Below, one piece after another: positions 21,494 to 48,923 of a stretch of DNA of 64,000 nt. Source of the stretch: Brachyspira suanatina (GTDB lineage: Bacteria > Spirochaetota > Brachyspiria > Brachyspirales > Brachyspiraceae); the NCBI RefSeq assembly GCF_001049755.1, contig NZ_CVLB01000001.1, positions 1,194,994-1,258,993 of the forward strand. Reading direction: 5' to 3'. The notes beneath the pieces were generated by a model. It ran no database searches and was not told where the DNA came from. It was given only the letters and a program-made list of their open reading frames with translations. Position 1 is the first letter of the stretch. Every line of letters starts with the position of its first letter. Both the position numbers and the translations under genes were made by a program.

Positions 21494-22774
21494 ATGTTAA
21501 TTACAATATTAGCGTTATTTATATTATTGCAAAGTAATGTATTTGGATATATAGATCCAGGTACAGGAAGTTTACTTTTCTCAGCACTTTTTGGGATAAT
21601 AGGAACGCTTTTCTTTTTATCAAAGGCTCTTTTGATAAAATTAAAAACTATGTCTTTTTCTAAAAATAAATCTATAGATACAGAAGCATCTAAAAAAGCA
21701 AGAATAATCATTTATGGAGAAGATAAAAGATATTGTAATGTATTTAAGCCTATTATAGAAGAATTAATAAAATTAGAAATACCAGTAATATATTACAGTT
21801 CAAGTGAAGATGATCCAATATTTGAAATAAAAAATGATTTGCTTCATACAGAATTTATTGGAATAGGTAATAAAGCTTATGCCAAATTAAATTTTATAGA
21901 AGCAGATATTTGTTTAATGACAACTCCTAATTTAGATGTTTTTCAATTAAAACGTTCTAAAGGCGTAAAGAAGTATGTGCATATATTTCATGCTCCAAAT
22001 GAAGCTGCTATGTATTGTTTATATTCTTTAGACTTTTTTGATGCTGCATTATTAAGCGGAGAAAATCAAATAGCTGATATAAGAGAACTAGAAGAAACTA
22101 GAGGAACCAAAGTAAAAGAATTAGAAATTATAGGAAGTCCTTATTTAGATGAACTTAATAAAAAGAAAGAAGAAGCTTTAGAGTCTATTACTAAAGTAGA
22201 AAATAAAAAAACTGTTTTAATAGCTCCTTCTTGGGGTATGAATGGACTTCTTACAAGATTTGGAGAAAAAGTAATAGATCCTATTTTAGAAAACGGATAT
22301 TATGTGATTATACGCCCTCATCCTCAATCTAGTATAGTAGAAAAAGATATGCTTGAAAGATTGAAAAATAAATATAAGGATAACTCTAATATAGAATGGG
22401 ATTTTAATGGGGATAATATTTATTCATTATCAAGGGCTGATGTTATGATATCTGATTTTTCAGGAGTAATATTAGATTATGCTTTTCTTTTTGAAAAACC
22501 TACTATAATACCTAGTTTTACTTTTGATAAAAGAGGTTATGATGCTGTTGAATTAAAAGAAGAAACTTGGACATTAAAAACTTTACCTAAAATAACAGTT
22601 TCTTTAGATGAGAATAATTTTGCAAATATTTCAAATATAGTAAATGATACTATTAATAATACTTCATTAAAAGATAATATTATAAAAGCTAAAGATGAAG
22701 CTTATAAATGCAGGGGGGAAGCTGCTAAAAATGGAGCTTTGGCTTTAAGAAAAATGCTTACAGAATTAAATTAA
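21494..22774 (+). CDS. CDP-glycerol glycerophosphotransferase (TagB/TagF-like)
   Basis: A 426-residue protein with an N-terminal membrane segment (about 1-45) and a GT-B-like glycerophosphotransferase domain: 'IFHAPNEAAMYCLYS', 'IAPSWGMNGLL', 'YYVIIRPHPQS' and 'MISDFSGVILDYAFLFEKP'. Relatives transfer a CDP-activated polyol phosphate onto wall teichoic acid or other glycans at the inner face of the membrane. It opens an operon with a CTP:phosphocholine-type cytidylyltransferase/kinase fusion and EutH, so the donor may be a CDP-linked amino alcohol or polyol; the true acceptor is unknown. A G6 run occurs near its end (about 22713). Confidence 0.82.
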   Translation: MLITILALFILLQSNVFGYIDPGTGSLLFSALFGIIGTLFFLSKALLIKLKTMSFSKNKSIDTEASKKARIIIYGEDKRYCNVFKPIIEELIKLEIPVIYYSSSEDDPIFEIKNDLLHTEFIGIGNKAYAKLNFIEADICLMTTPNLDVFQLKRSKGVKKYVHIFHAPNEAAMYCLYSLDFFDAALLSGENQIADIRELEETRGTKVKELEIIGSPYLDELNKKKEEALESITKVENKKTVLIAPSWGMNGLLTRFGEKVIDPILENGYYVIIRPHPQSSIVEKDMLERLKNKYKDNSNIEWDFNGDNIYSLSRADVMISDFSGVILDYAFLFEKPTIIPSFTFDKRGYDAVELKEETWTLKTLPKITVSLDENNFANISNIVNDTINNTSLKDNIIKAKDEAYKCRGEAAKNGALALRKMLTELN

Positions 22775-22812: not shown

Positions 22813-24270
22813 ATGAAAGCAATAATACTTGCAGCTGGTAGAGGCACAAGACTTTTACCTATGACTTTAGTAAAGCCTAAACCATTATTAGAGATACATG
22901 GAAAAACTATATTAGAAAACGCTATTGATATACTTAGAGAAGGCGGTGTAGATGATATCACTGTTGTTACAGGATATAAACATGAATTGTTTGATCCTTT
23001 ACAAAAAAAGCTTGGGTTTAAAAAGGTAGTATCTACAGATTTTGCTTCTAAAAACAGCAGTGCTTCATTAAAATTGGTAAAAGATGAAATTACTAATGGT
23101 ACTATAATAATGAATGGTGATTTATATATTAAAAAATCTTTTTTTGAATATATAAAGCCTAATGAATGCCAATTTTTATCACAAGAAATTAATAATGTTA
23201 TGGTATGGGAATATGTTGTTGATGAAGAAAAAAAACTTATTAAAATTATTAAAGATGCTACTAGCGGAAGATATGGTGAGACAGGAATAGCTTATTTTGC
23301 AGGTAAGTATGTTGATACTATAAAAGAAGAACTTGATAATTGTACAGATGATGAATATTGGGAATATGCTGTTTTCAGAGCATTAAGTAGAATAGATTTT
23401 TATATTAGTGAGGCAGAAGACATTGTAACAGAAGTTGATTCTTTCAAAGATGCAATCATGACTAATACATTGACTTTTGAAGATATTGCTAAACAATGTT
23501 CTGATAATGGAGAAGCTATTAGATTAAAAGGATTAACTAATTACAATTACAAAATAACTTTTAATGGTGATAAGAAAGTAATAAGAATTCCTGGTCTAGG
23601 TACAGAAAAGTTTATTGACAGACCAGCAGAAAAACATATTATGTCATTAGTTTCTGAAGATATTGCTCCTAAAAGTATGTTCTTTGATTATGACATTAAA
23701 ATAACTAATTATTTAGATGGATATAAAGATTTAGAGTTTGACGAGATAGATGAAAAGTTTTTATCTCTTTTTATGAAAAGATTAGAACAGCTGCATCAAA
23801 TTAAACTAAAAGATAATCCAGGATTTGTTCCTTTATTAATTTATAATAAAATAAAAAAATATGAAGAATTAGTGCCTATTAGTTTAGTAACTGAAAAAGA
23901 AAGAGAGTTTATACATAACTCAGCTAAAGAATTAGATAAAGATGAAAAAGTATTATGTCATTTAGATTTATTATTTGGAAATATTTTATATAATGGAGAA
24001 GATGTAAAAATAATAGATTTTGAATATTCTGGTTTCACTTCTAATTATTTAGATATAGCCAGTTTTGTATGCGAATCAGATATTGATGATGAAAGACGAT
24101 TAAAATTATTAAAATCATATAATGGTTTGGAAGATTCTAGAGTTAGAAAGGCTCAAATTATACATAATTATATATGGTCATTATGGGGTATTATGAACAA
24201 ATCTTATGAGTATATGAGATACCATATATCTGGTCTTCATAAAAATTTATCCTATTTTAATTTAAATTGA
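22813..24270 (+). CDS. LicC-LicA fusion: cytidylyltransferase plus choline/ethanolamine kinase
   Basis: A 485-residue two-domain enzyme. Residues 1-235 are a LicC-type nucleotidyltransferase ('ILAAGRGTRLLPMTLVKPKP', 'IIMNGDLYI'). Residues about 240-485 are a choline/ethanolamine kinase fold with the catalytic loop 'CHLDLLFGNI' near 382 and metal-binding 'IIDFEY' near 400. One polypeptide could therefore phosphorylate an amino alcohol and activate it as the CDP derivative. ATG 22813 follows AAGGAG. It lies 38 bases after the phosphotransferase gene and 22 bases before eutH, which suggests that ethanolamine or choline is the substrate. Confidence 0.85.
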   Translation: MKAIILAAGRGTRLLPMTLVKPKPLLEIHGKTILENAIDILREGGVDDITVVTGYKHELFDPLQKKLGFKKVVSTDFASKNSSASLKLVKDEITNGTIIMNGDLYIKKSFFEYIKPNECQFLSQEINNVMVWEYVVDEEKKLIKIIKDATSGRYGETGIAYFAGKYVDTIKEELDNCTDDEYWEYAVFRALSRIDFYISEAEDIVTEVDSFKDAIMTNTLTFEDIAKQCSDNGEAIRLKGLTNYNYKITFNGDKKVIRIPGLGTEKFIDRPAEKHIMSLVSEDIAPKSMFFDYDIKITNYLDGYKDLEFDEIDEKFLSLFMKRLEQLHQIKLKDNPGFVPLLIYNKIKKYEELVPISLVTEKEREFIHNSAKELDKDEKVLCHLDLLFGNILYNGEDVKIIDFEYSGFTSNYLDIASFVCESDIDDERRLKLLKSYNGLEDSRVRKAQIIHNYIWSLWGIMNKSYEYMRYHISGLHKNLSYFNLN

Positions 24271-24292: not shown

Positions 24293-25417
24293 ATGAGTAT
24301 AAATGAAATAATATTATATATAATGATTGTATTTATGGTTCTAGGAGCCATAGATAAAGTCATAGGCAATAAATTTGGTCTTGGAGAACAGTTTGAAGCT
24401 GGTTTTAATGCTATGGGGGCTTTAGCTTTATCTATGATAGGTATTATATGTCTTGCTCCAGTAATAGCAGCATTATTAAAACCGATTATCATTCCAATAT
24501 ACACTGCTTTAGGGGCAGACCCTTCAATGTTTGCAACAACAATACTTGCTAATGATATGGGGGGGGCTCCTTTAGCATTAGAATTTGCTAATGATATAAA
24601 TGCAGGAAAATTTTCAGCTTTTATAGTCGGTGCTATGATGGGGCCTACTATAGTTTTCAGTATACCAGTTGCTATTGGTATTATTAATAAAGAAGATCAT
24701 AAGTATTTAGCTTTGGGTATAGCTTCAGGTATGATTACTATACCAATAGGGGCTTTTTGCGGAGGGCTTGCAGCTGGATATGGAGTTATATTTTTAATAA
24801 AAAATCTTATACCAATAATTATAGTATCAATACTTCTTACTTTAGGTTTAATATTTATAAGAGATGTTTTGATAAAGATATTTGATTTATTTTCTAAATT
24901 TTTAGTTATATTAATTACTATAGGTTTAGTTTTTGCTGTAATAGAGGCATTAACAGGAATTCAAATTATAAAATTTACTATTAGCAATCAAACAATTACA
25001 ATGTCGTCTATATCTGATGCTGTTACTACAGTTGCTAGTATAGCTTTTGTTTTGGCAGGAGCTTTTCCTCTTGTATTTGTACTTACTAAAGTGGCTTCAA
25101 AACCTTTGGAAGCTGTAGGAAAAAAATTAGGTATGAATGATGTTGGAGCTGCTGGTTTGGTTGCAACTCTTGCTAATAATATACCTATGTTTAATATAAT
25201 GAAAGATATGAATAATCAAGGAAAGATTATAAATTGTGCCTTTGCTGTTAGTGCGGCATTTACATTTGGAGATCATTTGGGATTTACTGCTGGTTATGCA
25301 GGAGGAGAATATAGAAATATGATATTTCCTATGATAGTGGCTAAATTGGTTGGAGGTGTAACTGCTATAATAGTTGCTTATTTTGTATCTAAGATAGTGC
25401 TTAAAAATACTAATTGA
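24293..25417 (+). CDS. eutH: Ethanolamine permease EutH
   Basis: A 374-residue membrane protein with about ten helices and EutH signatures: 'MVLGAIDKVIGNKFGLGEQF', 'GADPSMFATTILANDMGG' and 'NNIPMFNIMKDMN'. No eut catabolic or microcompartment genes are nearby. Instead it follows a LicC-LicA fusion, implying uptake for envelope decoration rather than for growth. Codons 89-92 contain a run of eight G's (24559-24566), conspicuous in this A+T-rich genome and a possible slippage site. Its stop is 39 bases before the repeat-bearing leader ORF. Confidence 0.9.
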   Translation: MSINEIILYIMIVFMVLGAIDKVIGNKFGLGEQFEAGFNAMGALALSMIGIICLAPVIAALLKPIIIPIYTALGADPSMFATTILANDMGGAPLALEFANDINAGKFSAFIVGAMMGPTIVFSIPVAIGIINKEDHKYLALGIASGMITIPIGAFCGGLAAGYGVIFLIKNLIPIIIVSILLTLGLIFIRDVLIKIFDLFSKFLVILITIGLVFAVIEALTGIQIIKFTISNQTITMSSISDAVTTVASIAFVLAGAFPLVFVLTKVASKPLEAVGKKLGMNDVGAAGLVATLANNIPMFNIMKDMNNQGKIINCAFAVSAAFTFGDHLGFTAGYAGGEYRNMIFPMIVAKLVGGVTAIIVAYFVSKIVLKNTN

Positions 25418-25456
25418 TTTATTTTTTAATATGAAATATAATTAAAGAGGAAACAT

Positions 25457-25609
25457 ATGATAAACAGTCAACAGTCAACAGTCAACAGTCAACAGTCAAC
25501 AGTCAACAGTCAACAGTCAACAGTCAACAGTCAACAGTCAACAGTCAACAGTCAACAGTCAACAGTCAACAGTCAACAGTCAACAGTCAACAGTCAACAG
25601 TCAACATAG
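25457..25609 (+). CDS. Repeat-coded leader ORF upstream of YidC-sulfatase gene
   Basis: ATG 25457 has a strong ribosome site (AAAGAGG, 6-base spacing) and is followed after one further codon by 20 copies of AACAGTC. Because the unit is 7 bases, three copies encode the heptapeptide NSQQSTV, and changing the copy number changes the downstream frame. With 20 copies the frame stops at TAG 25607-25609 (50 codons). With 21 copies it would stop at the TAG now at 25612-25614. With 19 or 22 it would run 33 further codons to TGA 25701-25703, overlapping the next start codon. I infer a frame-dependent switch rather than a functional peptide. Confidence 0.6.
   Translation: MINSQQSTVNSQQSTVNSQQSTVNSQQSTVNSQQSTVNSQQSTVNSQQST
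25463..25606 (+). repeat. Heptanucleotide tandem repeat (AACAGTC)20
   Basis: Twenty exact copies of AACAGTC occupy 25463-25602, plus a partial AACA. There is no interruption, as expected for a tract that still mutates by slipped-strand mispairing. It lies inside a short ORF that starts 6 bases upstream. Confidence 0.97.
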
Positions 25610-25644
25610 TATAGACTTTATTTTTTTATATAAATCATTTTTTA

Positions 25645-25702
25645 TAAAAAGCATCATAAGCTCGAAGAAATTTATTTCTTGGGGGTATTATGATGTTTTT
25701 TG
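25645..25702 (+). promoter_or_regulatory. Hairpin hiding the YidC-sulfatase start and ribosome site
   Basis: GCATCATAA (25651-25659) pairs with TTATGATGT (25688-25696), which contains both possible ATGs (25690, 25693). Outward A-T pairs extend the stem to 25645/25702. Inside, CTC (25661-25663) pairs with part of the GGGGG ribosome site, and AAGAAAT/ATTTCTT (25665-25671, 25674-25680) closes the top. The A run before and T run after also make it look like an intrinsic terminator, so it may block translation, transcription or both. Confidence 0.65.
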
Positions 25703-28686
25703 ATATACTTTACAATATTACAATATACCCAATAGAATTCATTATAGAAATATTATTTTATCTATTTAATTCTGTCTTTAAATCAGGATATGGAGTAAGT
25801 TTATTTTTTATCAGTTTATGTATAAATTTTTTATCATTGCCATTATATAATATAGCAGAATCTTGGCAGGCTAAAGAAAGAGCAATTCAAGATAAAATGA
25901 AGCCAATGATAGATAATATTAAAGCCGTATATAAAGGAGATCAAAGGTATCTTTTAATAAGAGCTTGCCAAAGAATAAATGGTTATAAAACTATATATGC
26001 TTTTAGAGGTACTTTAGGTCTTTTAATACAAATACCATTTTTTATAGCAGCATATAATTTTATACATAGTATATCTGGATTAAATGGTCAGAGTTTTTTA
26101 TTTATAAAAGACTTATCTAAACCAGATAATTTAATTCATATTGGTAATATTAGTATAAATTTACTTCCATTTGTAATGACTTTATTTAGCTTGCTTGCCG
26201 GATTTGTTTATGCTAGGAAATTAAGATTTAAAGAAAGTTTGCCTCTCTATATAGTATCATTAATATTTTTAGTATTATTATATACTTCACCATCAGGACT
26301 TTTATTTTATTGGACTATTAATTGTTTATTTTCTTTAATAAAGAATATTGTAATAGAGTTTAAACTATATGAAGTATTTGTTAAAAATAAATATAAGTTA
26401 TTAAAAGCATATAACATATTGTTTATTATCGTTACAGTAGTATTTATGTTGTTAATTTCTTTATCAAATGTAGAAAGAAAAGGGTATTTATCAGATTTTG
26501 AATTTATAAATAATAGAAATGGATATTTTTATGCTGCTAGAGTAAGATATTATAGTAAAATTTTTATTACTAGTGATATATTTTCTTTTGTTGGCAATAA
26601 AGATAAATTAGATGATAATGTAATTAGTATAGAGTATGAGGGTAGTAGTACAATAGTATCTACTTTAATTTTAAAAGATAAAATTGAAAATATAAAAGAT
26701 GATATTATTATATACTATAGACTTTCTCCTAGAAGTTATTCAATTAATATATATTTGTTTTTGTTGTTTATAACTATCATATTGAATATATCAAATATAT
26801 ATAAATTTATATTTAATAAAAGTCATTTAATAGAATCTTTTGAAAAAAACAGATATAAATTAATGATAACTTCTTGTTTAACAATCACTATATTATCCGG
26901 GCTTTTTATATTGTCATCTCTTATATCTAACTCTCCTCAAGAATTTTCATATCCTTTTTATTTGATTATAAACAATTTATCTATAGGTATTGGATTATTT
27001 TTCTTTTACCCTATGTTTATATATTCATTATTTTCAGAAAAAATTAAAAATTACTTAACTTTACTGTCTTTGTTTTTTGTTATATTTGTATTAATAAATA
27101 CATTTGTAATGACAGGTAATTATATTAATATAAATAATGAATTTTTATTTGATAATGCTGATTTATTAAAATTTTCTTTTAAAGAATTATTATTGAATTT
27201 TTCATTGACTATTATATTTAGTTTAATATTAATTTTTATTTTAAGAGTTAATAAAAGTATATTTTTTATCAATATAAATTATATTGTATTAGCTGTTTTA
27301 GTAATTATTTCATTACTAGATATATATAATATATATAACTCACATGTTAAACTTAATGATATTAAGAAAAAATCAAATCAATTATCAAGTTATAAAATAT
27401 TTAATTTATCTAAAACAGAAAATAATATAATAGTTTTATTCATTGATAAAGCTGTAAATTCTTATTGGTTAGAAGCATTTGAGAGATTTCCAGAATATAA
27501 AGAAAAATTAGATGGTTTTACAATATATCCAAATACTGTTTCTTTTAGTCAATCTACTATAACAACGGCTTCTCTATATGGAGGTTATGATTATTTACCT
27601 TTCGAATTAAGTACAAATGGCAGTAATCTTTTAAAAGATAAACATAATGAGGCTATATTAACTGTACCGTTATTATTAGAAGAATATGGGTATAAGTCTA
27701 CTTTATTGGAACCTACATACGCCAATTTTTCAAATATTCTAGATTTGAGCATATTTGAAAATTACACTAATATTTCAGCTTATTCATCAGATTCTATTCA
27801 AAATTATAGTTTGAATATTTATTTTGGAGGAACAAACATTAATTTTGAACAGACTTTAGAAATGGATCAAAAAAATAAATCTATAAGATTTTCATTATTT
27901 AGAATGATGCCTATAAATTTAAGATATGATTTTTATGATAATGCTGGTTGGTTTTTAGCTAGTTCTTCTTTTTTAAGATTTAATTCTAGTATAAGATATT
28001 ATTCTGTTTTAGATTCTATAACTAACTTTATGAATATTACTGAGGATGGTAATTATTATAATATGATATATAATTTAGCTACACATGAACCTTATTACTT
28101 TGCTTCTGATTTTTTACCGCATACAAGTTTAGAAGATGTAGATAGTAAGGATTTAAATATATATAGAGATGATATTAGTACAAGATTTTTTTATGTTAAT
28201 GTTGCTGCCATTAATTCTTTAATAAAAATCATTAAATATTTAAAAGATAATGATGTTTATGATAATACTAAGATAATAGTAATTTCGGACCATGGAAGCG
28301 GGGTTTATAATAATAATTTTAATTCAAATAATTTATCTTTTGTCACTACTATAAATCCATTGTTAATGTTTAAAGATTTTAATAGTAAAGGAAATATAAA
28401 AATTGATACTAATTTTATGACTATAGCTGATATGCCGTATTTAGCAACTAAACATATTGATAATCCTATAAATCCATTTAATAATAAAATAATAACAAAT
28501 GATTATAAAAATAATGGAGTTAATATAATAACTGTTGATTCTTGGCAGGTTGATAGACAGTTAAGTAATTCATATAATTTTAATTATTATTATTATGTTA
28601 GAGATAATATATTTGATGTTAATAATTGGAAGAAATTTCAAATTGATTGGAAAACTAAAGAATCAAAAGAAGTAGAATTAAATTAA
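25690..28686 (+). CDS. YidC/Oxa1-domain and sulfatase-domain fusion protein
   Basis: A 998-residue membrane protein. Residues about 1-225 resemble a YidC/Oxa1 insertase core: 'LFFISLCINFLSLPLYNIAE', 'QDKMKPMIDNIKAVY', 'LLIQIPFFIAAYNFI' and 'SPSGLLFYWTINCLFSLIKN'. Residues about 235-560 add several membrane helices. Residues about 575-930 form an alkaline-phosphatase/sulfatase domain like LtaS or phosphoethanolamine transferases: 'IIVLFIDKAV', 'LATHEPYYF' near 797 and 'VISDHGSG' near 864. It ends an operon with EutH and LicC-LicA, so an extracytoplasmic phospho-alcohol transfer role is likely. A dedicated YidC for general insertion is unlikely. The start could be ATG 25690 or 25693; both lie in a hairpin. 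Confidence 0.78.
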   Translation: MMFFDILYNITIYPIEFIIEILFYLFNSVFKSGYGVSLFFISLCINFLSLPLYNIAESWQAKERAIQDKMKPMIDNIKAVYKGDQRYLLIRACQRINGYKTIYAFRGTLGLLIQIPFFIAAYNFIHSISGLNGQSFLFIKDLSKPDNLIHIGNISINLLPFVMTLFSLLAGFVYARKLRFKESLPLYIVSLIFLVLLYTSPSGLLFYWTINCLFSLIKNIVIEFKLYEVFVKNKYKLLKAYNILFIIVTVVFMLLISLSNVERKGYLSDFEFINNRNGYFYAARVRYYSKIFITSDIFSFVGNKDKLDDNVISIEYEGSSTIVSTLILKDKIENIKDDIIIYYRLSPRSYSINIYLFLLFITIILNISNIYKFIFNKSHLIESFEKNRYKLMITSCLTITILSGLFILSSLISNSPQEFSYPFYLIINNLSIGIGLFFFYPMFIYSLFSEKIKNYLTLLSLFFVIFVLINTFVMTGNYININNEFLFDNADLLKFSFKELLLNFSLTIIFSLILIFILRVNKSIFFININYIVLAVLVIISLLDIYNIYNSHVKLNDIKKKSNQLSSYKIFNLSKTENNIIVLFIDKAVNSYWLEAFERFPEYKEKLDGFTIYPNTVSFSQSTITTASLYGGYDYLPFELSTNGSNLLKDKHNEAILTVPLLLEEYGYKSTLLEPTYANFSNILDLSIFENYTNISAYSSDSIQNYSLNIYFGGTNINFEQTLEMDQKNKSIRFSLFRMMPINLRYDFYDNAGWFLASSSFLRFNSSIRYYSVLDSITNFMNITEDGNYYNMIYNLATHEPYYFASDFLPHTSLEDVDSKDLNIYRDDISTRFFYVNVAAINSLIKIIKYLKDNDVYDNTKIIVISDHGSGVYNNNFNSNNLSFVTTINPLLMFKDFNSKGNIKIDTNFMTIADMPYLATKHIDNPINPFNNKIITNDYKNNGVNIITVDSWQVDRQLSNSYNFNYYYYVRDNIFDVNNWKKFQIDWKTKESKEVELN

Positions 28687-46911: not shown

Positions 46912-47601
46912 TTATTTTAATATTACAATTATAAAGCCATCTTTTCTACAATCATCCATATCATGATACTCTACTACATTATAATTTAAATATTTGCATA
47001 GTTCAAGAATATCCTCTGTTATCCAAACAGAATGATGCATATCATCAAATTGTTTTTCAGATTTTATACTGCCATTATGTCTTCCTATAAGTTCATTTAA
47101 TGTTGTTCTTTCCCTATCTTTATCAAATGTTCTTTCTTTATGCGGTATTATCATAAAAATATATCCGCCTTTTTTTGTAACTCTATACCATTCTTCTAAT
47201 GCTTTAATTGGATCAAAAAAATGTTCTAGTACATGGCTAGTAAATACAAAATCAACTGTATTATCTTTAAATGGTAAATTATCACCGTCAGCTATAATGT
47301 CTATATCTTGAATAAAACTATTATGTTTTGTTTGTTCTAAATAATAAGGATTATTTATATTAGATGATATATTAACTCTATCTATTTTTATGGCATCTAT
47401 ACCATAATCAGCATATGCAGCACCGCCAATTTCTATACCTTTCAATCCTGTTAAATATTTGTTTACAATTTCACTATTAGCAGTTTTTTTTATATATTTA
47501 TAATTATTTATAATATGTTTTTTCATATTTATTTTGAATTTATTTCTTAATGATCTTATTGGTATAAACCATGCTAATTTATCTATTATGTTTTTAGGCA
47601 T
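46912..47601 (-). CDS. SAM-dependent methyltransferase-like protein, copy 1
   Basis: A 229-residue class I methyltransferase-like protein: 'LKGIEIGGAAYADYGIDAI' (motif I), 'DIIADGDNLPFKDNTVDFV', 'SHVLEHFFDPIKALEEWYRV' and 'KKGGYIFMIIPHKERTFD'. The N-terminal 'IIDKLAWFIPIRSLRNKFK' has no counterpart in ordinary methyltransferases. It is a paralogue of 48055-48795 at about two-thirds identity through the core. The start ATG 47601 lies in a hairpin with its ribosome site, and a GAGT tract lies 56 bases upstream. The target is unknown; a cell-surface glycan is suggested only by the repeat-controlled expression. Confidence 0.75.
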   Translation of the reverse strand: MPKNIIDKLAWFIPIRSLRNKFKINMKKHIINNYKYIKKTANSEIVNKYLTGLKGIEIGGAAYADYGIDAIKIDRVNISSNINNPYYLEQTKHNSFIQDIDIIADGDNLPFKDNTVDFVFTSHVLEHFFDPIKALEEWYRVTKKGGYIFMIIPHKERTFDKDRERTTLNELIGRHNGSIKSEKQFDDMHHSVWITEDILELCKYLNYNVVEYHDMDDCRKDGFIIVILK

Positions 47602-47656: not shown

Positions 47657-47720
47657 AGTGAGTGAGTGAGTGAGTGAGTGAGTGAGTGAGTGAGTGAGTG
47701 AGTGAGTGAGTGAGTGAGTG
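47657..47720 (-). repeat. Tetranucleotide tandem repeat (GAGT/ACTC), 15-16 units
   Basis: Fifteen full GAGT units at 47660-47719 with partial units on both sides. It is upstream of methyltransferase copy 1. Just before the tract on the minus strand the sequence reads AAGGAAGTATAC, the damaged counterpart of the AAGGAGG and ATG present at copy 2. Confidence 0.97.
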
Positions 47721-48054: not shown

Positions 48055-48795
48055 TTATTTTTGTATTACTATAGTAAAACCATTTCCTACAGCATCATCA
48101 ATATCCTGATATTCTACTACATTGTAATTTAAATATTTACATAATTCTAATAAATCTTCTGTTATCCATACAGAATAGTGAAACAATATATTGTTATTGG
48201 TTAACTTTATTTTACCATTATGTCTATCTATTAATTCATCTAGTGTAGTTCTTTTTCTATCCCTATCAGGAGTTCTCTCTTTGTGAGGAACTAACATCAA
48301 AATATATCCACCTTTTTTTGTAACTCTATACCATTCCTTTAATGCTTTAATAGGATCAAAAAAATGTTCTAATACATGACTACTTAATATAAAATCTACT
48401 GTATTATCTTTAAATGGTAAATCATCTCCACTAGCTATTATATCTGTTTTTTGTATAATTCCACTGTATTTTATTTGTTCTGCTGCATTTTCATATACAA
48501 GATTATTTTCATCTTCTATATTTACATGTATCACATCAATTCCAAAATCAGCATGAGCTGATCCTCCTATTTCTATGCCTTTTAATCCAGATAAATATTT
48601 TGTAACTATATTACTGTGTCTAGTTTTAGTATTTGAGATATGATTATATAATTCAGGAAATGTTTCTATTAATTCTTTTTTTGGCATATTTATTAAAGAA
48701 TCTATTACTGCCTTATTAATATCATTTTTAAATTGTTCTCTTTTTGCTTTATTTGGAATCCACCAAGCTAGTTTATCTATTATGTTTCTAGGCAT
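48055..48795 (-). CDS. SAM-dependent methyltransferase-like protein, copy 2
   Basis: A 246-residue paralogue of copy 1, with 'LKGIEIGGSAHADFGIDVI', 'DIIASGDDLPFKDNTVDFI', 'SHVLEHFFDPIKALKEWYRV' and 'KKGGYILMLVPHKERTPD'. It has 17 extra residues between the 'IIDKLAWWIP' start and motif I. Conserved motif positions suggest an active enzyme. The start ATG 48795 has its own AGGAGG, but both lie in a hairpin (48779-48821), and a repeat-coded leader ORF runs toward it. The substrate is unknown. Confidence 0.75.
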   Translation of the reverse strand: MPRNIIDKLAWWIPNKAKREQFKNDINKAVIDSLINMPKKELIETFPELYNHISNTKTRHSNIVTKYLSGLKGIEIGGSAHADFGIDVIHVNIEDENNLVYENAAEQIKYSGIIQKTDIIASGDDLPFKDNTVDFILSSHVLEHFFDPIKALKEWYRVTKKGGYILMLVPHKERTPDRDRKRTTLDELIDRHNGKIKLTNNNILFHYSVWITEDLLELCKYLNYNVVEYQDIDDAVGNGFTIVIQK

Positions 48796-48839: not shown

Positions 48840-48923
48840 TTATATGTGAGTGAGTGAGTGAGTGAGTGAGTGAGTGAGTGAGTGAGTGAGTGAGTGAGTG
48901 AGTGAGTGAGTGAGTGAGTTCAT
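48840..48923 (-). CDS. Repeat-coded leader ORF upstream of methyltransferase copy 2
   Basis: ATG 48923-48921 follows AAGGAGG with 7-base spacing and leads after one codon into the TCAC/GAGT tract, coding for S-L-T-H repeats. With the present 18 units it stops at TAA 48842-48840 (27 codons). With 19 it would stop at the TAA now at 48837-48835. With 17 or 20 it would pass through the 5' arm of the start hairpin and end at TAG 48790-48788, eight bases past the first base of the methyltransferase ATG. I infer a switch, not a functional peptide. Confidence 0.6.
   Translation of the reverse strand: MNSLTHSLTHSLTHSLTHSLTHSLTHI
48846..48919 (-). repeat. Tetranucleotide tandem repeat (GAGT/ACTC)18
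   Basis: Eighteen uninterrupted GAGT units at 48848-48919 plus a partial GT. It begins four bases after the ATG of a leader ORF on the minus strand. Confidence 0.97.

Follow-up and report, generated by a model that had tools for sequence, protein, structure and literature searches.

A Repeat-Filled Leader Reading Frame as a Putative Translational Switch Upstream of a Membrane Protein Gene in Brachyspira suanatina

Introduction

How might a repeat that lies outside a gene decide whether that gene is translated? The question arises at a locus of Brachyspira suanatina, an intestinal spirochaete whose hosts are pigs and mallards (PMC4603578), where an array of AACAGTC heptamers occupies a small leader reading frame ahead of a gene for a large membrane protein. 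The locus lies in a stretch of 64,000 nucleotides (RefSeq assembly GCF_001049755.1, contig NZ_CVLB01000001.1, forward-strand positions 1,194,994 to 1,258,993), which we call the window and whose numbering we use throughout. A preliminary description of this DNA had proposed that repeat copy number sets the frame in which ribosomes leave the array, and that only some frames carry them across a hairpin covering the start of the downstream gene. The proposal has gained in strength from comparison with relatives: the frame pattern recurs at 17 of 17 array loci, the hairpin appears to be kept, five of six leaders without an array lie in a coupled frame, and copy number differs between sources. We therefore consider it probable that the locus is a phase-variable translational switch, in which the leader frame after the repeat gates the passage of ribosomes through a predicted hairpin at the start site.

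Results

The array is the top-scoring tandem repeat in the whole window and sits wholly within a small leader open reading frame (ORF) with its own ribosome-binding site and ATG (Table 1). At the present copy number the leader ends at the TAG at 25607. One more copy moves its end to the TAG at 25612, which lies in the gene's own frame, while one copy fewer or two more move it to the TGA at 25701. All of the elements named beforehand, namely the ribosome site, ATG 25457, the array, the two early stops and the third frame running to TGA 25701, were re-derived, and our frame read-out agrees that 20, 21, and 19 or 22 copies set three different leader ends. The copy that was sequenced would be in an off phase. 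Because the published assembly of B. suanatina AN4859/03 was built from Ion Torrent and Illumina MiSeq reads (PMC4603578), the copy number of the array may be inexact. Such arrays are rare in this genome: a scan for units of 4-12 bases in at least 4.5 copies across a 400 kb sample (20 stretches of 20 kb) found a single one, made of A/T only, and a comparable scan found three in the window.

The segment from 25645 to 25702 is predicted to fold into a hairpin of -22.2 kcal/mol (z -5.06; none of 200 shuffles was equally stable). The two early leader stops lie 35 and 30 bases ahead of it. The computed probability of being unpaired is 0.31 at 25682-25686, in the ribosome site of the gene, and 0.00 across the ATGATG at 25690-25695. 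With a ribosome placed at either early stop the value for the start codon is 0.00, and with a ribosome inside the 5' arm of the hairpin it is 0.18-0.23. This folding bears out the earlier view that the hairpin hides both the ATG and the GGGGG site and begins beyond both early stops, with the refinement that the GGGGG is only partly paired.

Comparative support for the fold comes from an alignment of 19 of 23 sequences, from which G001, G003c196 and G007a were omitted as diverged and G007c as a duplicate. For these 19 distinct sequences, the window among them, RNAalifold returned a single stem of 10 pairs. Pairing is kept in 96.3% of alignment cells, a level matched by 1 of 500 shuffles, and the covariation score of 0.238 was reached by 0 of 500 shuffles, compared with 0.013-0.109 in slid-arm controls. 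Relatives folded singly gave the same stem in 11 of 12 cases; an Rfam scan of the window gave no match. Computed fold and comparison together predict a hairpin conserved in the genus with some compensatory change.

In translational coupling, a hairpin at a start site is opened by translation of an upstream ORF whose stop overlaps the downstream start. Here the start is, by prediction, sequestered in RNA structure, and a leader stop overlapping the start occurs in the open frames, though not in the present phase of the window.

The frame arrangement recurs across the genus. A search of 26 Brachyspira genomes with the downstream protein gave matches in all of them and strong homologues in 15; the other 11 had weak matches only (best E about 1e-11 or weaker than 1e-13), mainly to the YidC-like part. 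From the 15 genomes we took 42 gene starts, omitting matches without a start of their own, and found a perfect array within 450 bases upstream of 17 of them, in 11 genomes. The units are AACAGTC (or rotations of it), AACAGCA, AACAATC (32 copies), GCAAACC, TTCTCAC and the 5-base TCTCA; their lengths are 7 or 5, never a multiple of 3. At every one of the 17 loci stops close the gene's own frame, and another frame can be read through to a stop at +1 or +11, a pattern expected by chance at 2.72 of 17 when spacers are dinucleotide-shuffled. Both non-gene frames reach the start at 11 of these loci, and just one does so at the remaining six (this window, G001, G003c196, G012, G021c50 and G023a); the claim that a single phase of three is open thus holds for this window and five other loci and fails for the majority.

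A leader ATG was present at 14 of the 14 array loci with a visible leader start, the three others being cut by contig ends. The phase could be read at 13 loci (one has an N in its array), with eight leaders reaching the start and five stopping short, a mixture of the kind that a switch would predict. In G007, neighbouring copies of the gene carry arrays of 32 and 11.9 repeats (L080:302-525, L049); the units differ slightly, and each array is in an open frame. Five draft contigs (L011, L013, L100, L113, L114) end inside heptamer arrays; some assemblies break at such arrays, and leaders are hidden as a result. Two Treponema relatives (L019, L020) showed no array in the 500 bases upstream.

Six homologues with a leader but no array of at least three copies were examined. 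Their leaders end at +1 in G004a and at +11 in G009a, G009b, G000p3 and G007e, and the leader start is homologous in G004a, G009a and G009b. Where the array is absent, the leader is thus in what appears to be the coupled frame in five of six cases.

Evidence on copy number came from a leader-peptide search that returned 63 proteins, seven of which were compared with the loci analysed. P0003, an annotated protein of B. hyodysenteriae ATCC 27164, is identical to the G007b leader. P0026 corresponds to the G024a leader minus 14 residues (6 copies), and P0005 is the G021c50 leader minus 7 residues (3 copies) with one substitution. The tail of P0034 is the exact tail of G025c59 in its other open frame and, judged by length, it would have two copies fewer. 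When the end of the longest leader from B. hyodysenteriae served as query, P0003 was the one protein found, and no copy-number series emerged for that species. Many cyanobacterial matches were set aside, the repeat being all they share with these leaders; such heptamers are common in cyanobacteria. Copy number differs between these peptides of different sources and the loci analysed, once with a change of frame; three of the seven peptides are left unmatched.

Leader arrays also occur elsewhere in Brachyspira. A heptamer search gave matches in 17 of the 26 genomes, and arrays were examined among the matches listed. In all, 17 further arrays, heptamer and other, were inspected; 12 of them, together with L145, were tested against shuffled spacers (n = 13). 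A non-gene frame reaches the next start in eight of the 13: both ACTC arrays of the window, the G022 relative, L106, L107, L109 (gene start uncertain), L111 and L145. The second window array has one frame that runs on to +5 of a gene for a methyltransferase (48055-48795, minus strand; chance 0.20), whereas no leader ATG was seen at the third array, 47657-47720 (chance of open frames 0.20). Four more have a longest frame that falls 12-25 bases short of the start: L063, L108 and L110, upstream of an MFS-type gene, and L064. Such frames have a chance of 0.001-0.014 at L063, L106-L110 and L145. It is 0.20-0.27 for the window ACTC arrays, G022 and L111, which have short spacers, and these arrays consequently prove little on their own. 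L106 and L107 have no ATG near the array, only GTG or TTG.

Two loci differ in layout. At L064 (1484-2931) a heptamer leader precedes a Serpulina_VSP (variable surface protein) gene; its longest frame is the gene's own, and over about 185 bases one frame stays open as far as the ribosome site of the gene. At L014 (10392-10560), from an uncultured Brachyspira metagenome-assembled genome, an ACAGC leader array is followed by a strong intrinsic terminator and an FkbM-type methyltransferase gene, and the longest leader frame terminates inside the 5' arm of the terminator. The shuffle test was uninformative for L064 (0.755) and L014 (1.0) because only frames other than the gene's were scored. Among the other five arrays, L112 and L113 look as if they lie within genes, L009 resembles neither layout, a contig end truncates L114, and L017 starts at a contig end but has a frame overlapping its gene. 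The L112 array (L112:2075-4501), from one species, is in frame within a gene that, judged by eye, resembles a restriction-modification enzyme gene, and a related array of 6.9 copies in the window's own genome (L009:3038-6149) is separated from its gene.

Variable-surface-protein loci were surveyed directly. Among the matches listed, 28 of 30 such loci had no array; the other two were L145, whose array precedes a different gene, and L168, which has no leader start. Since this survey adds no case, the link to surface proteins comes from L064 and L109 (start uncertain), both found through the heptamer. We judge it an even call whether a general contingency system exists, in which leader repeats of 4, 5 or 7 bases are combined with interchangeable read-outs (a start hairpin, a terminator or a bare stop-start overlap) and would serve surface decoration, methyltransferase, transporter and variable surface protein genes.

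The gene downstream of the leader starts at 25690 or 25693, and which of the two positions is usable differs among relatives. A YidC/Oxa1 domain covers residues 34-222 (PF02096, 6e-22), and a sulfatase match falls below the Pfam cut-off (20.3 vs 25 bits). An AlphaFold model built on 13 sequences was weak (mean pLDDT, the predicted local distance difference test, 67.5) and was used for the superfamily call only. Its best matches are phosphoethanolamine transferases, lipoteichoic acid synthases and sulfatases, all of the alkaline phosphatase superfamily; the modelled likeness is one of superfamily level only. Upstream genes encode a EutH-like transporter and kinase-like and nucleotidyltransferase domains (Table 1), which would supply the precursors of a small phosphate-linked head group; the product of the downstream gene would attach this group to a surface molecule. 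A role in modifying the cell surface is likely.

Table 1. Features of the window discussed in the text.
Feature	Position	Strand	Basis
Heptamer array AACAGTC, 144 bases, 20.57 perfect copies	25463..25606	+	tandem-repeat scan
Leader ORF at the present copy number, 50 aa, ATG 25457 to TAG 25607	25457..25609	+	
Ribosome-binding site of the leader, GAGGA	25447..25451	+	read from sequence
TAG closing the gene's own frame; leader stop of the second closed phase	25612..25614	+	
TGA ending the leader in the open phase, within the first codons of the gene	25701..25703	+	
Predicted hairpin pairing the start codon and part of the gene's ribosome site	25645..25702	+	folding, relatives
Ribosome-binding site of the downstream gene, GGGGG, within the hairpin	25681..25685	+	
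Gene for a 998 aa membrane protein with YidC/Oxa1-like and alkaline-phosphatase-superfamily domains	25690..28686	+	
Promoter-like site, candidate only (TTGATT, 17, TATAAT), directly 5' of the leader	25414..25442	+	
EutH-like transporter	24293..25417	+	PF04346, E 2e-135
Nucleotidyltransferase fused to a choline/ethanolamine-kinase-like domain	22813..24270	+	PF00483, PF01633
CDP-glycerol glycerophosphotransferase-like protein	21494..22774	+	PF04464
Second array: AGGAGG, ATG, 18.5 ACTC copies, closed phase now	48846..48919	-	
Third array: 16 ACTC copies, 5' of a similar methyltransferase gene (46912-47601, minus strand)	47657..47720	-	

Discussion

Under the mechanism that we infer, slipped-strand events within a clone would change the number of heptamers and with it the leader frame. 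With 20 or 21 copies the leader would end 30-35 bases before the hairpin, the start would stay paired and the gene would be off. With 19 or 22 copies the ribosome would open the hairpin and terminate 8-11 bases inside the gene, which would then be translated by coupling or re-initiation.

Several observations weigh against this switch or narrow what can be built on it. The frame pattern is expected at 9.34 of 17 loci when the last 45 bases, which hold the hairpin, are kept fixed, and the array loci are kin, falling into 4 spacer groups (single-linkage, 75% identity). For the hairpin, change of both partners is seen in just two pairs (10 cells), a count that 116 of 500 shuffles match, and the number of pair types is reached by 441 of 500. 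G007e lacks the hairpin fold, two other relatives fold at z near -1.6, and the diverged G001, G003c196 and G007a stand outside both the alignment and the single folding. Among array-free leaders, that of G007a stops 13 bases short of the start, the leader ATGs of G000p3 and G007e were picked by eye, and the six were chosen for their resemblance to others, the remaining 19 of the 42 homologues, which have no array, lying outside the leader comparison. P0001, P0002 and P0004 match none of the loci analysed (3 of 7 peptides), and variation within species is deduced from peptides of different sources, not from DNA of one clone. The switch is well supported, by comparison alone.

The closest precedent is the pil1 locus of Streptococcus gallolyticus, where GCAGA repeats set the length of a leader peptide and long leaders prevent a premature terminator from forming; a heterogeneous, mostly low profile was shown by isolates in which at least 28 nt separate the leader stop from that terminator (PMC3894217). 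As in the window, the short repeats of pil1 and pil3 lie in a small leader ORF that has a ribosome site of its own, and their unit is not a multiple of 3. At pil1, too, it depends on the frame whether the leader stops well short of a stem-loop or continues into it, with early stops at least 28 nt away in the low-profile isolates compared with 30 and 35 nt here. The two differ in that the pil1 element is a terminator before the gene, whereas the hairpin of the window lies on the ribosome site and start codon, was not detected as a terminator, and is crossed by an open-frame leader that ends on the start codon; organism (a spirochaete), repeat and gene also differ. The preliminary description had set the arrangement apart from classic contingency genes, and this is right in that the repeat lies outside the gene, but the principle of leader repeats has its precedent in pil1 (PMC3894217).

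That precedent also supplies the best rival explanation, in which the same leader-frame switch works on transcription: the hairpin would be a terminator that ends transcription in the first codons of the gene in the off phases and that a ribosome in the open frame prevents from acting. S. gallolyticus pil1 acts in this way, a run of six T (25696-25701) comes after the stem's start-codon arm, and the clear terminator at L014, 3' of a leader array in Brachyspira itself, gives a locus that looks like the pil1 attenuator design. Consensus scans that detect the L014 terminator were nevertheless negative in the window region and in two relatives, a result to which the six T attach some doubt. Moreover, the lower part of the stem is rich in AT, the six T double as two Phe codons, the ribosome site and start codon are the very bases that pair, and the open-frame stops fall on the start codon. 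We therefore find a terminator unlikely and hold that the start site is most likely gated by translational coupling.

Leader and hairpin could also be a fixed coupling device in which the array is a tolerated, slippage-prone insertion whose switching is not selected. The array-free leaders, five of six in the coupled frame, are what such a device would look like; against it, six differing units recur at one place and a 400 kb sample of the window's genome shows arrays to be rare, and we think this very improbable. Length-acting tracts upstream of genes are found in other bacteria, and the array might likewise act by its length rather than its frame, through promoter spacing, mRNA stability or protein binding. 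Yet the leader ATG precedes the array at all loci where it is visible. Action by length would also leave the open and closed frames, and the coupled frames of array-free leaders, unexplained, and we give it very little credence. As to promoter spacing, the array of the window lies 3' of an ATG and of a candidate promoter-like site, a kind of site that occurs at chance level (six found, 4.0 expected, standard deviation 2.0). A classic contingency gene, with the array in the gene's own 5' end frameshifting the protein, is scarcely credible and was rejected: open frames suggest that layout at L112 (restriction-modification-like) and L113 (glycosyltransferase-like, at a contig end), both named by eye, but at all 17 array loci the stretch from array to gene is closed in the gene's own frame.

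Compared with textbook coupling, the switch proposed here shares the stop-start overlap and the hairpin on the start and differs in being gated by repeat copy number. Leader-frame switching as such is already known, and what sets this locus apart appears to be the gated element, a start site with stop-start overlap. The available parts of a mainly open-access literature on leader peptides, upstream ORFs and coupling in phase variation do not report this arrangement, nor do the comparable parts of that on Brachyspira repeats and phase variation (including PMC5415613 and PMC4267127) report repeat-driven switching.

The gene content recalls lic1 of Haemophilus influenzae, a phase-variable set of choline kinase, permease and nucleotidyltransferase genes driven by repeats (PMC2992063). 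Kinase, permease and nucleotidyltransferase are likewise found together with repeats in the window. In lic1, however, the CAAT repeats lie inside licA, whereas here they form a separate leader before a different gene, and a EutH-like permease takes the place of a LicB match. LicD had no match among the five window proteins scanned with Pfam (an NCBIfam scan covered four of these and two others).

If the proposed switch is real, surveys limited to repeats inside genes or promoters would miss leader arrays, and short-read contigs that end in arrays conceal leaders of this type. Spirochaetes would then possess a translational form of leader-peptide phase variation, and copy number modulo 3 would serve as a sequence rule for which cells express a gene with a likely role in surface modification; certain genes for variable surface proteins may also fall under this rule.

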